A program made the position numbers and the translations under genes. From positions 1 to 64,000 of the forward strand of contig JAJKJU010000178.1 in the NCBI GenBank assembly GCA_021153565.1: a stretch of 64,000 nt of DNA, in the 5' to 3' direction. Below the pieces are notes generated by a model that saw nothing but the letters and a program-made list of their open reading frames with translations, ran no database searches and was not told the origin of the DNA. Shown in pieces: positions 24,380-49,975 of the stretch. How positions within the stretch are numbered: the first letter of the stretch is position 1; each line of letters begins with the position of its first letter. The DNA is from Rhizobacter sp. Its GTDB lineage: Bacteria > Pseudomonadota > Gammaproteobacteria > Burkholderiales > Burkholderiaceae_C.

Positions 24380-24408
24380 GAAAATGCCCGCTGAAAGCGG
24401 GCATTTTC
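24380..24408 (+). terminator. Bidirectional intrinsic terminator
   Basis: AAAATGCCCGCT-GAA-AGCGGGCATTTT perfect 12-bp stem. Confidence 0.88.
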
Positions 24409-24444
24409 ATTCCTGTTGTGGCGCGAATGTTGCAACACTTGCGC

Positions 24445-25077
24445 ATGAATCAGGCCACGGCCCTGCGCATCGTCATCGTCGCTCCCGACACCCTCGCCCC
24501 CGATCCTTCTGATCCGCAGGCCGAGGTGGAGGCAGAGCGCTCGCGCAGCCTGCGCATCGGCATGCTCGAGAACGGCTACAACATCGTTGCCGTGCTACCG
24601 GCAGACGTATTCCTGCCCGACCGGCTCGCGCAGATCAGCCCCGACATGATCATCGTGGACGCCGAGAGCCAGGCACGCGACACGCTGGAACATGTGGTGG
24701 TCGCCACGCGAGATGCGCGTCGGCCGATCGTTTTGTTCACCAACGATGACGATACCAGCCATGTGCGCGACGCCATCGCGGCGGGTGTCACTGCCTATGT
24801 TGTCGCCGGACTGGCCGCGGATCGCGTGAAACCCGTGCTGGAAGTCGCACTTGCACGCTTCCAGCATGAAGAAGCCATGCGTCGCGAACTGGCGGATGCG
24901 CGCATGCAGCTGTCCGAGCGCAAGGTGATCGATCGGGCGAAGGGCATCCTGATGCGCCGGCACTCGCTGGAGGAAGGCGAAGCCTATGCGCGGCTTCGCA
25001 AGACAGCAATGGACAAGGGCATGAAGCTCGCCGAAGTGGCACAGCGGATCATCGACGTGGCGGATTTGCTTGGCTGA
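24445..25077 (+). CDS. nasT: NasT-type response regulator with ANTAR RNA-binding domain
   Basis: Receiver-like domain then ANTAR signature ERKVIDRAKGILMRRHSLEEGEAYARLRKTAMDKGMKLAEVAQRIID; adjacent to nrtABD. Confidence 0.88.
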   Translation: MNQATALRIVIVAPDTLAPDPSDPQAEVEAERSRSLRIGMLENGYNIVAVLPADVFLPDRLAQISPDMIIVDAESQARDTLEHVVVATRDARRPIVLFTNDDDTSHVRDAIAAGVTAYVVAGLAADRVKPVLEVALARFQHEEAMRRELADARMQLSERKVIDRAKGILMRRHSLEEGEAYARLRKTAMDKGMKLAEVAQRIIDVADLLG

Positions 25078-25262
25078 CGCACAAGGCTTGTGCATTGCAC
25101 GAGTCCAATTGGTGCGGAATGCTTCGCGGGTGGCAGAGCGAAGGTCCGGGCATGAGGTGCCGGTCGAAGGACCCCAGACGATCGTCCACACCGGGACGAC
25201 GTCCCGCGTCGGGCTGCGTCGACAGTCCGCGGATCCTTCGCATTCCCCACCCAAACGCCCCG

Positions 25263-25277
25263 TGGCATGGGGCTTGC
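25263..25277 (+). promoter_or_regulatory. Sigma-54 (-24/-12) promoter upstream of nrtABD
   Basis: TGGCAT-GGGGC-TTGC matches TGGCAY-N5-TTGC. Confidence 0.78.
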
Positions 25278-25289
25278 ATATCCCCTTGC

Positions 25290-25343
25290 GGACGGTCAAC
25301 GGCGATCTTCCAACAACATCGATACGCACCATCGACGGTACGT
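25290..25343 (+). ncRNA. ANTAR-target RNA motif (two hexaloop hairpins)
   Basis: P1 GGA-C-GGUC[AACGGC]GAUC-U-UCC (25290-25311); P2 ACG-C-ACC[AUCGAC]GGU-A-CGU (25324-25343); both loops have A1 and G4; begins at the predicted sigma54 TSS. Confidence 0.75.
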
Positions 25344-25357
25344 CTCGAAAGGACGAC

Positions 25358-25415
25358 GGCGTCCCCACCGAACTGGTCTAGGCCAGTGACGTGCGGACGC
25401 CATTTTTGCTTTTTG
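25358..25415 (+). terminator. Leader terminator/attenuator before nrtA
   Basis: GGCGTCC...ACTGG-tctagg-CCAGT...GGACGCC-A-TTTTTGCTTTTT. Confidence 0.75.
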
Positions 25416-25429
25416 CACGAGACAACACC

Positions 25430-26692
25430 ATGACCCCATTCCTGAACGGAAAGATCGACATGAGCCGCCGTCAACTCATCAAAGCCGCTGCAGCCGCAGG
25501 CGCCGCCGGCATGGTCCCCGGCTTGCAAAGCGCGGTCTACGCCGCCGGATCGGACAAGCCCGAGAAGGAAGAGGTTCGCATCGGCTTCATTCCCCTCACC
25601 GACTGCGCATCGGTGGTGATGGCCTCGGTACTCGGCTTCGACAAGAAGTACGGTGTGAAGATCATTCCGACCAAGGAAGCCTCGTGGGCCGGCGTGCGCG
25701 ACAAGCTCGTCAACGGCGAGCTCGACATGGCGCACGTGCTGTACGGCCTGATATACGGCGTGCACCTGGGGGTGAGCGGCCCCAAGAAGGACATGGCCGT
25801 GTTGATGACGCTCAACAACAACGGCCAAGCCATCACGCTGTCGAAAAAGCTCGCGGACAAGGGAGCCGTCGACGGCCCGAGTCTCGCCAAGCTGATGCAG
25901 GCCGAAAAGCGGGAATACACCTTCGCGCAGACTTTCCCAACCGGGACGCATGCCATGTGGCTGTACTACTGGCTCGCGACCTATGGCATCAATCCGATGA
26001 AGGACGCCAAGGTCATCACCGTGCCGCCGCCACAGATGGTTGCCAACATGCGAGTGGGCAACATGGACGGTTATTGCGTCGGCGAGCCCTGGGGCCACCG
26101 GGCCATCATGGACGGCATCGGCATCACAGGTGTCACCACGCAGGACATCTGGAAGGACCACCCCGAGAAGACGCTCGGAAGCACGGCCGACTTTGTGAAG
26201 AAGAACCCCAACACCTGCCGCGCAGTGATGATGGCCATCATCGAAGCTGGCAAGTGGATCGACGCGAGCCTGCAGAACAAGATGAAGATGGCCGAGACCG
26301 TGGCCGACAAGAGCTATGTCAATACCGGCGTCGACGCGATCAACCAGCGCATCCTGGGCCGCTACCAGAACGGCCTCGGCAAGACCTGGGACGACCCCAA
26401 CCACATGAAGTTCTTCAACGACGGCGCAGTCACCTTCCCATACCTGTCCGATGGCATGTGGTTTCTCACGCAGCACAAGCGCTGGGGTCTTATCAAGGAG
26501 CACCCCGACTATCTCGCGATCGCCAAGCAGATCAACCAGATCGATCTGTACAAGGAGGCGGCAAGTGCGCTCAAGGTCAACATCCCCAAGGAGCCGATCC
26601 GCACGAGCAAGCTGATCGACGGCACGGTGTGGGACGGCAAGGACCCTAAGAAGTACGCCGACAGCTTTTCCGTGCGCGCCAGCGTGGCCTGA
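25430..26692 (+). CDS. nrtA: Nitrate ABC transporter substrate-binding protein, Tat-type signal
   Basis: MSRRQLIKAAAAAGAAG twin-arginine leader; NrtA/CmpA-like sequence; operon with permease and ATPase. Confidence 0.9.
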   Translation: MTPFLNGKIDMSRRQLIKAAAAAGAAGMVPGLQSAVYAAGSDKPEKEEVRIGFIPLTDCASVVMASVLGFDKKYGVKIIPTKEASWAGVRDKLVNGELDMAHVLYGLIYGVHLGVSGPKKDMAVLMTLNNNGQAITLSKKLADKGAVDGPSLAKLMQAEKREYTFAQTFPTGTHAMWLYYWLATYGINPMKDAKVITVPPPQMVANMRVGNMDGYCVGEPWGHRAIMDGIGITGVTTQDIWKDHPEKTLGSTADFVKKNPNTCRAVMMAIIEAGKWIDASLQNKMKMAETVADKSYVNTGVDAINQRILGRYQNGLGKTWDDPNHMKFFNDGAVTFPYLSDGMWFLTQHKRWGLIKEHPDYLAIAKQINQIDLYKEAASALKVNIPKEPIRTSKLIDGTVWDGKDPKKYADSFSVRASVA

Positions 26693-26716: not shown

Positions 26717-27637
26717 ATGGTCAGTGCAGTGTTTCATTCGCCGCTCGAAGCTGCGGCGGAATCCCAGGCTGAGGCGCTTGCCCAGCCTGTAAAGGCGGCG
26801 TCGGTCATCGCCCCGCCCGCCCAGCAGAAGGTGGCGCCGCCGGCGCCGGTGAAACCACCCGCCGATTGGGGAAGCCTGTTTCTCAGGGTGTTTGCACCGC
26901 TTGCGGGAATTGCCTTGCTGGTGGGCATCTGGGGGTTGCTCACGATGAAGAGCACCACCTTCCCGACGCCCGCGGCAACTTTCACGGAAGCCATCAAGGT
27001 GTTTTCCGACCCGTTCTACAGCAAGGGCCCGAACGACCAGGGCATCGGCTGGAACATCCTCTTCTCGCTGCAGCGCGTGGCCATCGGATTCGGCATGGCA
27101 GCGGCGGTGGGCATTCCGCTGGGCTTCATGATCGGTCGTTTCGATGTGCTCAATCGCATGGTGTCGCCGCTGATCAGCCTGCTGCGCCCGGTCTCGCCTC
27201 TTGCGTGGCTGCCGATTGGCTTGCTTGTGTTCAAGGCCGCTAACCCGGCCGCGATCTGGACGATCTTCATCTGTTCGATCTGGCCAATGATCATCAACAC
27301 CGCGGTCGGTGTACAGCGCGTGCCAGAGGACTATATGAACGTCGCAAAGGTGCTGAACCTGTCGGAATGGAAGATCGTCTCGCGCATCCTCTTCCCCGCG
27401 GTGCTGCCGTACATGCTGACGGGTGTGCGCCTGTCCGTTGGCACCGCCTGGCTCGTGATCGTCGCGGCCGAAATGCTGACTGGCGGCGTGGGCATCGGCT
27501 TCTGGGTGTGGGACGAGTGGAACAACCTCAACGTCACGCACATCCTGATCGCGATCTTCGTGATCGGCACCGTGGGTCTCTTGCTGGAATGGATGCTCGT
27601 CAGCATCGCCAAGCGATTCAGCTACGACAACACATGA
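26717..27637 (+). CDS. nrtB: Nitrate ABC transporter permease
   Basis: ABC permease of NrtB/SsuC type. Confidence 0.9.
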   Translation: MVSAVFHSPLEAAAESQAEALAQPVKAASVIAPPAQQKVAPPAPVKPPADWGSLFLRVFAPLAGIALLVGIWGLLTMKSTTFPTPAATFTEAIKVFSDPFYSKGPNDQGIGWNILFSLQRVAIGFGMAAAVGIPLGFMIGRFDVLNRMVSPLISLLRPVSPLAWLPIGLLVFKAANPAAIWTIFICSIWPMIINTAVGVQRVPEDYMNVAKVLNLSEWKIVSRILFPAVLPYMLTGVRLSVGTAWLVIVAAEMLTGGVGIGFWVWDEWNNLNVTHILIAIFVIGTVGLLLEWMLVSIAKRFSYDNT

Positions 27638-28449
27638 GGACATCCGCCATGAAGAAGAACTTCATTGATGTGCACAGCGCCGAAATGGTGTTCAGCACGA
27701 AAAAGGGCCGTTTTCACGCGCTGCACGACGTCCACCTCACGGTGGCCAAGGGTGAGTTCGTGACGCTGATCGGGCATTCGGGCTGCGGCAAGTCGACGCT
27801 CTTGAACCTGATCGCCGGCCTGCTGATGCCCACGAGCGGTGCACTGCTGTGCGACAACCGCGAGATTGCCGCACCGGGGCCGGAGCGGGCGGTGGTATTC
27901 CAGAATCATTCGCTTCTGCCGTGGCTCACCTGCTTCGAGAACGTGTACCTCGCGGTGGAACGTGTGTTTGCAGCCACCGAAGCAAAGACGAAGTTGAAGA
28001 AACGGACGCAGGAGGCCTTGGAGCTCGTGGGCATGGGCCACGCGACCGGCAAGCGACCTCATGAGATCTCCGGCGGCATGAAGCAGCGTGTGGGCATCGC
28101 GCGGGCGCTGGCGATGGAGCCGAAGGTGCTGCTGCTCGACGAACCCTTTGGTGCGCTCGACGCGCTGACTCGCGCGCATCTGCAGGACGAGCTGCTGAAG
28201 ATCGTGGCGCGCACGCAAAGCACAGTGGTGATGGTGACGCACGATGTGGACGAGGCGGTGTTGCTGTCAGATCGGATCGTGATGATGACGAACGGACCGG
28301 CGGCGACCATCGGCGAGATCCTGACTGTCGACCTGAAGCGCCCGCGCGAGCGCGTTGAATTGGCCGAGGATCCGCGCTACGTGCACTACCGCAAGGAAGT
28401 ACTGGACTTCTTGTACACGCGGCACGGCGAGAAGGCGCTGGCGGCCTGA
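27634..28449 (+). CDS. nrtD: Nitrate ABC transporter ATP-binding protein
   Basis: Walker A GHSGCGKST, signature SGGMKQR, Walker B VLLLDEP; overlaps nrtB stop. Confidence 0.9.
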   Translation: MRTSAMKKNFIDVHSAEMVFSTKKGRFHALHDVHLTVAKGEFVTLIGHSGCGKSTLLNLIAGLLMPTSGALLCDNREIAAPGPERAVVFQNHSLLPWLTCFENVYLAVERVFAATEAKTKLKKRTQEALELVGMGHATGKRPHEISGGMKQRVGIARALAMEPKVLLLDEPFGALDALTRAHLQDELLKIVARTQSTVVMVTHDVDEAVLLSDRIVMMTNGPAATIGEILTVDLKRPRERVELAEDPRYVHYRKEVLDFLYTRHGEKALAA

Positions 28450-45182: not shown

Positions 45183-45213
45183 TTTGCGAAGACGCGCGGC
45201 GTAGAATGAATTT

Positions 45214-45385
45214 GTCCGCCGCCTTCGCGTGAGTTTTATATTTCCTTGAACCAATGCTCATTGAGCTCGGGCTTGGAACATACACCGCAGGTGTGATCGT
45301 CTCGCGTCAGATGAACCCGAAGCGCAGTTGACCTGGCCCACCTGAACCCCCGGTTCAGGAATGCGGCTCACGGTTAGCGGTGGAC
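45214..45385 (+). ncRNA. ssrS: 6S RNA
   Basis: Conserved position after zapA; closing stem GTCCGCCGC...GCGGTGGAC; internal CTGAACCCCCGGTTCAG hairpin; upstream tagaat -10. Confidence 0.82.
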
Positions 45386-45412
45386 ACCTCATTTTTCTTG
45401 ACGACGTTTCCG

Positions 45413-48154: not shown

Positions 48155-49417
48155 TCAGCCGACCAGCACCTGCATGCTGTGTTCGTAGCGCTGCGTGAGG
48201 CGATCGAACAGCATCAGCAAGGTTTCGCTTGCGTCTGCCAGCGTCTTCGGGCCATTGCTGGCACGAGGCCGCGCCAAGACTTTCGACATCGCATCCCATA
48301 CCCTGCCCGCTTCGTCCAGCGACTCGCGAATGTCGCGAGTGGTGAGGGGCGCGGCGTTCAAGTAGCCTAGAGCCTCCTCGAAGGCATGCCGCGAACGCTC
48401 GGTTTCGGCTGATGCCTGCGTGGCTGCTTCACCCGTCAGCAAAACAGCAAGAAGCGCCTGCTTGGCAACGCGCTGCGACAGCATGCGCTGGCGGCCGGCC
48501 ACATTGATCACATGAAGCGTCGTCGCGGCACCCGTTGTTTCCAGCGCTGTGACGAGCCGGTCAGCTTGCAGCAGCATGCGCTCGGCGAGAGCATCGGCCT
48601 CTTGCAAGCGGACTGCGTCCACGGTCGCGGCCAGCAAAGTCTTGAGCGAAGTCCACGGCGTGGTGACTGCGTCGAGCAGATCGCCATAAGTCGACTTTGA
48701 CAGGGTCTTGACCAGAGTCGAGAGATTGGCATCGACACGTGCGCACGATTCGGCTTGCGAAGAGCAGTCCACCCCCATCGACGCCAGGGCATACAGCTTC
48801 ACCAGCCTTTGCGACAGCATGCGCAGCTGCCCCGCGCGGTTGATGGCTTCGGCCACGCCCGCCGCGGCGATCACATGCTGAGAGACCTGCCCGACGCGCT
48901 GGTTGCTGTGCATGGACGCGGCGCGCAGGACCCTGAACGCTTCTTCTTCCGACACCTGCCGCGCTCGCATCAGGATGCCTTTGGCGCGGTCGACGAGCTT
49001 TCGCTCCTCGAAACGATGCGACACGTCAGCCAAATCAGCTCGGAGTTTCTGCTCGTGAGCGAAGCGTGCCTGCGCCAGATGGATGAGCGGGCGAAGGCGC
49101 TGGGCCGCATAGCCGTTGACGACGTAGACGTGGATGCCGACCTCCAGCGCGCGGGCCATCTTGTCTGCGTCGGGATCGGGCGTGAAAAGCACCACGGGTC
49201 GCGGTGAGCTGGCCTGCAACAGCGCGATCGCGCCGAACAGCCCCTCATCGACCGTCGACTCATGACAAACGACCAGATCAGGCACCAGACGCACTGCTTC
49301 TTGCACCAAGTTGCCGCGCAGCACCGCACCAAGCACGTGAATCCCGGCAGCCTCGAGGTCAACATCGAGAGCGGGTGCAGCGGGGCCGGAACCGGCGAGA
49401 ACAAGGCAGGAGATCAT
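48155..49417 (-). CDS. ANTAR-domain regulator with two NarX/PilJ-type P-box-like segments
   Basis: ANTAR signature EERKLVDRAKGILMRARQVSEEEAFRVLR followed by INRAGQLRMLSQRLVKLYAL and INVAGRQRMLSQRVAKQALL. Confidence 0.85.
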   Translation of the reverse strand: MISCLVLAGSGPAAPALDVDLEAAGIHVLGAVLRGNLVQEAVRLVPDLVVCHESTVDEGLFGAIALLQASSPRPVVLFTPDPDADKMARALEVGIHVYVVNGYAAQRLRPLIHLAQARFAHEQKLRADLADVSHRFEERKLVDRAKGILMRARQVSEEEAFRVLRAASMHSNQRVGQVSQHVIAAAGVAEAINRAGQLRMLSQRLVKLYALASMGVDCSSQAESCARVDANLSTLVKTLSKSTYGDLLDAVTTPWTSLKTLLAATVDAVRLQEADALAERMLLQADRLVTALETTGAATTLHVINVAGRQRMLSQRVAKQALLAVLLTGEAATQASAETERSRHAFEEALGYLNAAPLTTRDIRESLDEAGRVWDAMSKVLARPRASNGPKTLADASETLLMLFDRLTQRYEHSMQVLVG

Positions 49418-49499
49418 CGGAAAGGTGGCTTGTTTACCAGCGACGAGGCAGCGTCTGATGTCAGCAAGCATTGCACCATAGCAGCCTGGAGGCAAATCC

Positions 49500-49514
49500 T
49501 GGCACGGCGCTTGC
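49500..49514 (+). promoter_or_regulatory. Sigma-54 promoter upstream of nitrate-transporter remnant
   Basis: TGGCAC-GGCGC-TTGC. Confidence 0.72.
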
Positions 49515-49651
49515 GAACATGCTGCGTCGGGTGTGACGCTGCACCCAGGCCCTGTCCGCGCACGACGAGCCATGCTCACGACGCCGTTGAGCAGTCATGT
49601 GCCTCCTTCCCCGGCCCACGGCCGGAGTGTCTTTCGGAGACCATGATTCCC

Positions 49652-49794
49652 ATGTCGACCTTCAAGACCTTCTTGCGTGTGGACACGCGCCGACCCTGGT
49701 GTCTGCCTTCCTGTATTCCGGCTTTTCGTGCTGCATTTGGGGGCTCAACGGCGCCATGGCGCCGTTCATCACCGACACCTATCACATCACCTGA
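49652..49794 (+). pseudogene. Truncated, frameshifted NarK/NasA-type MFS nitrate transporter (N-terminus only)
   Basis: MSTFKTFLR / GHAPTLVSAFLYSGFSCCIWGLNGAMAPFITDTYHIT* spread over two frames. Confidence 0.7.
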
Positions 49795-49960: not shown

Positions 49961-49975
49961 TGGCACTTGCCTTGC
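49961..49975 (+). promoter_or_regulatory. Sigma-54 promoter directly upstream of nirB
   Basis: TGGCAC-TTGCC-TTGC. Confidence 0.7.

Follow-up and report, generated by a model that had tools for sequence, protein, structure and literature searches.

The leader that lies between a nasT-like gene and nrtABD in the window (the whole 64,000-nucleotide stretch of Rhizobacter sp. DNA analysed here, contig JAJKJU010000178.1) is very probably a sigma54-dependent antitermination leader of nrtABD controlled by the ANTAR protein NasT. Judged from its sequence and from analogy with studied systems, it would represent a three-hairpin variant of the ANTAR dual-hexaloop kind. It was confirmed that the sigma54 promoter, the hairpins with A1/G4 hexaloops (A at the first and G at the fourth loop position) and the terminator between nasT and nrtA are real and beyond chance. 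These features and the genes concerned are as follows.

24442–25077 (+), nasT-like gene for a pseudo-receiver plus ANTAR domain (Pfam ANTAR PF03861, 74.3 bits), candidate trans-acting antiterminator
25079–25095 (no strand), possible weak NtrC-type dyad CGCACAAGGCTTGTGCA, with 3 mismatches to TGCACC-N5-GGTGCA
25263–25277 (+), sigma54 (-24/-12) promoter TGGCATGGGGCTTGC, consensus TGGCAY-N5-TTGC, GG and GC 10 bp apart
25290–25311 (+), P1, ANTAR hexaloop hairpin GGA-C-GGUC[AACGGC]GAUC-U-UCC, loop with A1 and G4 (covariation)
25319–25348, core 25324–25343 (+), P2, second ANTAR hexaloop hairpin ACG-C-ACC[AUCGAC]GGU-A-CGU, loop with A1 and G4 (covariation, folding)
25351–25364 (+), P3, predicted antiterminator hairpin GGAC[GACGGC]GUCC, GGACGACGGCGUCC (conservation, covariation, folding)
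25358–25414 (+), intrinsic terminator GGCGTCC...GGACGCC-A-TTTTTGCTTTTT, with inner CAC/GTG and CTGGTC/GGCCAG stems
25430–26692 (+), nrtA, nitrate ABC transporter substrate-binding protein with a Tat signal (PF13379, 338.7 bits; TAT_signal PF10518)
26717–27637 (+), nrtB, nitrate ABC transporter permease (TIGR01183, 245.5 bits, above cut-off)
27640–28449 (+), nrtD-type nitrate transporter ATPase (TIGR01184, 348.6 bits, above cut-off)
48155–49579 (-), PilJ-ANTAR protein (PF13675, 86.3 bits; PF03861, 66.6 bits)

The order along the + strand is nasT, leader, nrtA (start codon ATG 25430), nrtB and the nrtD-type ATPase gene. The nasT-like open reading frame opens at GTG 24418, with ATG 24448 as its likely start. 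An ANTAR regulator gene adjacent to the leader on its upstream side had been claimed in the first-pass annotation, and the Pfam match of the nasT product bears this out. The receiver part of NasT is degenerate and was not detected by Pfam; it aligns with EutV and Rv1626, which together with NasR and AmiR are the solved relatives of NasT. The protein has the receiver-like domain and ANTAR domain of the NasT of NasS–NasT systems, and in the EutV alignment carries Tyr and Met at the positions equated with EutV Tyr164 and Met172. The host, a soil or water bacterium, has a Burkholderiales genome (5.4 Mb, 92 % complete) close to Albitalea/Rhizobacter; its NasT shares 91 % identity with the homologue from Albitalea terrae, and the two cluster together in the NasT tree. 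Upstream of nasT, at 24380–24410, a symmetrical hairpin GAAAATGCCCGCTGAAAGCGGGCATTTTC was noted which, judged by eye, is probably a two-way terminator, and at 45210–45390 (+) a 6S RNA was found barely over the Rfam gathering score.

The same annotation had described the leader as a sigma54 promoter, two hairpins of the same plan with A1/G4 hexaloops and an intrinsic terminator, and all of these elements were found. What it had overlooked was one mismatch within each hairpin stem and the presence of P3, the hairpin that excludes the terminator, so that its device of P1, P2 and terminator was incomplete. For the promoter, a perfect TGGCAY-N5-TTGC was present in 50 of 53 leaders (the window counted) compared with 0.03 % of 300-nt shuffles. 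Counting the usual sigma54 spacing from the GC at 25276–25277 puts the predicted transcription start near 25289, at the base of P1. The distance from the P1 loop to the TGG of the promoter is 34–38 nt within the window's class. Further upstream, an NtrC-type site with at most two mismatches was present in 21 of the 53 leaders compared with 1.8 % of shuffles; such a dyad is enriched in relatives but weak in the window itself.

P1 and P2 are conserved among relatives. Folding lengthens the core of P2 by UCGA/UCGA, and the stem mismatches, C.U in P1 and C.A in P2, fall where most relatives pair. For P1, both sides were changed in seven of the eight pairs. A hairpin search that did not require A1 or G4 returned 18 distinct loops for the second hairpin, 15 of them with A1 and 16 with G4, against free variation at positions 3, 5 and 6. 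The binomial probabilities, for a base frequency of 0.3 and ignoring kinship, are ~4e-6 for A1 and ~3e-7 for G4. At least one A1/G4 hexaloop hairpin precedes P3 in 72 of 73 leaders; 24 of the 73 have two or more. Many of the relatives are close kin, so that counts across them are not independent. By comparison, 252 of 3650 shuffles (7 %) had one A1/G4 hexaloop and 3 (0.08 %) had two. The 113-nt leader folded with a z-score of -2.8. In an alignment of 26 leaders, 12 pairs had changes on both sides and the structural covariation score was 0.339, compared with 0.165 for shuffles (none of 500 reached it) and 0.075–0.095 for slid versions. P1, P2 and the terminator covary strongly beyond both the shuffled and the slid controls.

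The arms of the terminator are GGCGTCC at 25358–25364 and GGACGCC at 25395–25401, followed by the A and T-run up to 25414, and the structure folds with P1 and P2 intact. A simple pattern scan for terminators gave none here because the loop is too large for the pattern. Across the 26 aligned leaders 94.5 % of terminator cells are paired, and the 3' arm with its T-rich run is present in 51 of 52 leaders. The 3' half of P3 and the 5' terminator arm are made of the same bases, 25358–25364, which makes the two structures mutually exclusive. In folding, a transcript ending at 25366 forms P1, P2 and P3, and one ending at 25402 forms P1, P2 and the terminator. P3 is kept in 52 leaders. A change of GTCC to GTTC in the shared arm is matched by one of GGAC to GAAC in its P3 partner and by one of GGACGC to GAACGC (or to GAGCGC/GGACGC with G-U pairs) in the 3' arm of the terminator. 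This three-way covariation links P3, the shared arm and the terminator 3' arm, and P3 is accordingly read as the antiterminator. The G1 of the P3 loop in the window can pair with C6, giving GGACG-ACGG-CGUCC. This loop does not carry the full ANTAR signature, which counts against the main reading, as do the stem mismatches of P1 and P2.

The state of the P3 loop differs among relatives. Collection via NasT gave 57 loci, nearly all of which show the same order where the leader is usable, and the promoter, P1 and P3/terminator are conserved downstream of nasT in about 50 relatives. The P3 loop is A1/G4 in 44 of 73 leaders (AAAGGC, AACGGC and others), and in most relatives outside the window's group such a P3 is the second hexaloop of the ANTAR pair. 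Loops with G1, namely GACGGC, GAAGGC, GATGGC or GACGAC, are found in the window's group and in a few further lines. Two upstream hexaloops were found in 19 of 29 G1 leaders vs 5 of 44 A1 leaders (Fisher 2e-6, kinship uncorrected). On the NasT tree this combination of G1 with two hexaloops occurs in a Sphaerotilaceae group and separately in Ramlibacter/Caenimonas, and it is also seen in the nirB leaders of genomes G001 and G011. G1 and the second upstream hexaloop thus appear, from these sequences, to have arisen together more than once. Measured to the P3 loop, the nearest upstream A1/G4 loop is 24–32 nt away in most leaders of either class; the distance is 56–60 nt where the middle hairpin has no A1/G4 loop, and 37 nt in one leader. 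A strict rule of exactly two A1/G4 hexaloops per leader was considered and rejected: it is true for the majority and is broken by G1 leaders with one hexaloop and by a few leaders with three.

To follow the leader more widely, a covariance model (R1) built from the window and near relatives was used, and matched 51 of 121 genomes at E <= 1e-4. An ANTAR match was present in 50 of the 51 positive genomes vs 31 of the 70 others (Fisher 3e-11, kinship uncorrected), the lone exception being a fragmented genome (G028) with its R1 match at a contig end. Additional matches in relatives precede nirB, narK, an FNT-type transporter and nrtA, as named from a reading of translated starts and not a profile search, and their P3/terminator sequences are nearly identical. 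The inspected leaders of relatives thus precede nitrate-assimilation genes. In the window's genome R1 gave a single confident leader, that of nrtABD, and neither low-threshold Rfam nor R1 found a hexaloop leader before nirB. Perfect sigma54-like sites were noted upstream of nirB at 49500–49514 and 49961–49975 (+), without a recognisable ANTAR leader. Between a sigma54-like site and nirB lies a narK remnant at 49678–49794 (+), GHAPTLVSAFLYSGFSCCIWGLNGAMAPFITDTYHIT followed by a stop, with the rest of the gene missing.

No Rfam family matched the leader at gathering score, and the only relevant match was the narK RNA, RF03032, at 23.1 bits against a gathering score of 43.2, which places the leader outside the family as defined. 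The RF03032 consensus includes a sigma54 element and an AACGGC hairpin, and several RF03032 matches overlap R1 matches. In the family to which the host belongs, 17 of 17 RF03032 matches have an ANTAR-protein match no more than 180 nt away on their own strand, and an ANTAR coding stretch was present in the fetched flanks of 20 of the 23 inspected RF03032 loci (L091–L102, L142–L152). These sequences suggest that the narK RNA family represents sigma54-promoted leaders targeted by ANTAR proteins. Neither a paper on the motif nor a published function for it was found in the literature searched, and the link to ANTAR proteins may have been published elsewhere.

The usual nitrate-sensing partner of NasT is NasS. 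Pfam and a NasS query (the NasS of locus L088, whose gene overlaps its nasT) did not find it in the window's genome, 92 % complete, or in the complete genome G097 from the same genus. In both genomes the query matched only NrtA, which bears an export signal, and the family profile added lower-scoring proteins only. The genome search gave two ANTAR matches, both within the window: nasT and the PilJ-ANTAR gene, which lies 24 kb from the leader and is divergent from the nirB/nasA genes. Long ANTAR frames like PilJ-ANTAR were also seen in several relatives. In the relative G021, the same leader (1500–1680 of locus L095) is preceded by a NIT-ANTAR gene (32–1363) in place of nasT, which looks from the sequence as if the regulator had been exchanged while its RNA target was conserved. 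In NasR of Klebsiella, nitrate is bound by the NIT domain (PMC5424462). By analogy, this NIT-ANTAR leader and the gene content support nitrate as the putative signal, and PilJ-ANTAR is one candidate for relaying it to NasT.

The PilJ-ANTAR protein could also be an alternative or additional regulator of the leader. That it, or both ANTAR proteins together, acts on the leader instead of NasT alone is considered unlikely, even though it would provide the nitrate sensing absent with NasS, is the sole other ANTAR protein found in the genome and is encoded beside nirB/nasA. The GxxRMLSQR motifs repeated in its PilJ part, as read from the sequence, resemble the P-box of NarX-type nitrate sensors. However, nasT adjoins the leader throughout the clade and is the only ANTAR gene in many leader-bearing relatives, and PilJ-ANTAR reads Phe at the position of EutV Tyr164. 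It is highly improbable that the leader is free of ANTAR control altogether, with an ordinary attenuator or a constitutive terminator behind the sigma54 promoter, given the conserved A1/G4 loops, the covariation, the co-occurrence with ANTAR proteins and the narK RNA matches adjoining ANTAR genes.

The other alternatives concern which hairpins the ANTAR protein recognizes. One upstream hexaloop and P3 might work together as in the EutV and NasR leaders, with P3 recognized despite its G1 and one upstream hairpin dispensable. In the EutV crystal Tyr164 contacts G4, which the window's P3 retains, and A1 is uncontacted and may prevent cross-loop pairing (PMC8934654). The A1/G4 state of P3 in 44 of the leaders and the common 24–32 nt spacing would likewise fit such a pair. 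Against this, G1 in P3 would allow cross-loop pairing with C6, which can shut the loop to a tetraloop and is preferred in folding; pairing in the terminator also constrains the G4; and G1 occurs mainly with two upstream hexaloops, with repeated origin on the NasT tree, as though ANTAR recognition of P3 had been given up. We regard this pairing as possible, on the doubtful side. Recruitment by a single hexaloop, with P1 alone as the ANTAR site and P2 a mere spacer hairpin, is quite improbable: A1/G4 is retained in the window's P2 and in most of the 18 distinct second-hairpin loops, while other loop positions vary. It would nevertheless account for nine G1 leaders (e.g. L038, L042, L054) in which only P1 is canonical and the P2 stem is mostly kept with A1/G4 lost, and EutV was bound by one hexaloop in vitro (PMC8934654).

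The first-pass annotation had predicted nitrate-responsive antitermination of nrtABD, a reading that is partly supported: antitermination as the likely function is strongly supported by the comparison of promoter, hexaloop pair, terminator and adjacent ANTAR gene, and the response of this NasT to nitrate is putative. In the NasT-controlled antitermination preferred here, sigma54 RNA polymerase, presumably aided by NtrC, would initiate near 25289 under nitrogen limitation, and P1, P2 and P3 would appear successively from the polymerase. With the ANTAR protein inactive, the 3' arm at 25395–25401 would capture the 5' arm from P3, and the terminator would stop transcription before nrtA. Active NasT, presumably in response to nitrate, would bind the A1/G4 hexaloop of P1 and next that of P2 and, through hand-over or proximity, would hold P3 folded until the polymerase has cleared the T-run, so that nrtABD is made. 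This class of mechanism has experimental support from eut (PMC3369931, PMC8934654) and from nasA of Paracoccus (PMC5424462).

A more specific stepping-stone version is offered tentatively, as a serious possibility that we hold short of probable. P3 would have been freed from direct ANTAR recognition by the change from A1 to G1 and closure of G1-C6, and the hexaloop pair would have moved upstream. An ANTAR dimer would be passed along a regularly spaced ladder of hexaloops toward the RNA exit channel, the P1 loop lying 56–62 nt and the P2 loop 24–32 nt before the P3 loop, and would act on P3 or the polymerase by proximity, not via an A1/G4 loop on the terminator. In the EutV structure one dimer apparently cannot hold both hexaloops simultaneously, and successive hand-over has been proposed (PMC8934654).

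The leader can be compared with three sets of known systems. With EutV/eutP of Enterococcus, NasR/nasF of Klebsiella and AmiR/amiE of Pseudomonas (PMC3369931; Walshe 2022, PMC8934654) it has in common tandem A1/G4 hexaloops, a hairpin overlapping the 5' arm of the terminator, an ANTAR regulator and a role in nitrogen metabolism. The window has the two A1/G4 6-nt loops, the intrinsic terminator before a gene and an ANTAR protein in the genome that define the dual-hexaloop class. In the antiterminator/terminator switch described by Ramesh 2012 (PMC3369931) the second ANTAR hexaloop is at the place equivalent to P3. P3 in the window does exclude the terminator, but its loop is G1, whereas the loop is A1 in 44 of 73 leaders; unlike in the EutV, NasR and AmiR leaders, both A1/G4 hairpins of the window precede the terminator, a third hairpin with a G1 loop is the one that overlaps it, and the leader directly follows a sigma54 promoter. 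With the NasT/nasA leader of Paracoccus denitrificans (PMC5424462) and other NasST systems it shares a NasT-type gene just upstream of a nitrate operon, leader hairpins and termination. It differs from the Paracoccus system in having no detected NasS, in targeting the transporter operon nrtABD, and in the sigma54-type promoter that belongs to this operon and the three hairpins that precede the T-run. The narK RNA likewise has the sigma54 element and the AACGGC hairpin, and most of its matches across the family and the order neighbour ANTAR genes, with several matches preceding nrtA or nirB; its model stops before P3 and the terminator, both of which are present in the window's leader. ANTAR dual-hexaloop antitermination is a known mechanism, and by homology and comparison the window appears to depart from the textbook pair in its three-hairpin form with an upstream hexaloop pair.

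The clade is a set of natural variants, with one, two or three hexaloops, steps of ~24–32 or 56–62 nt, and a terminator-overlapping hairpin with or without A1. This natural variation makes the ANTAR hand-over model directly testable. The narK RNA gains a suggested function, and the findings point to NasT systems that must receive their signal without NasS.
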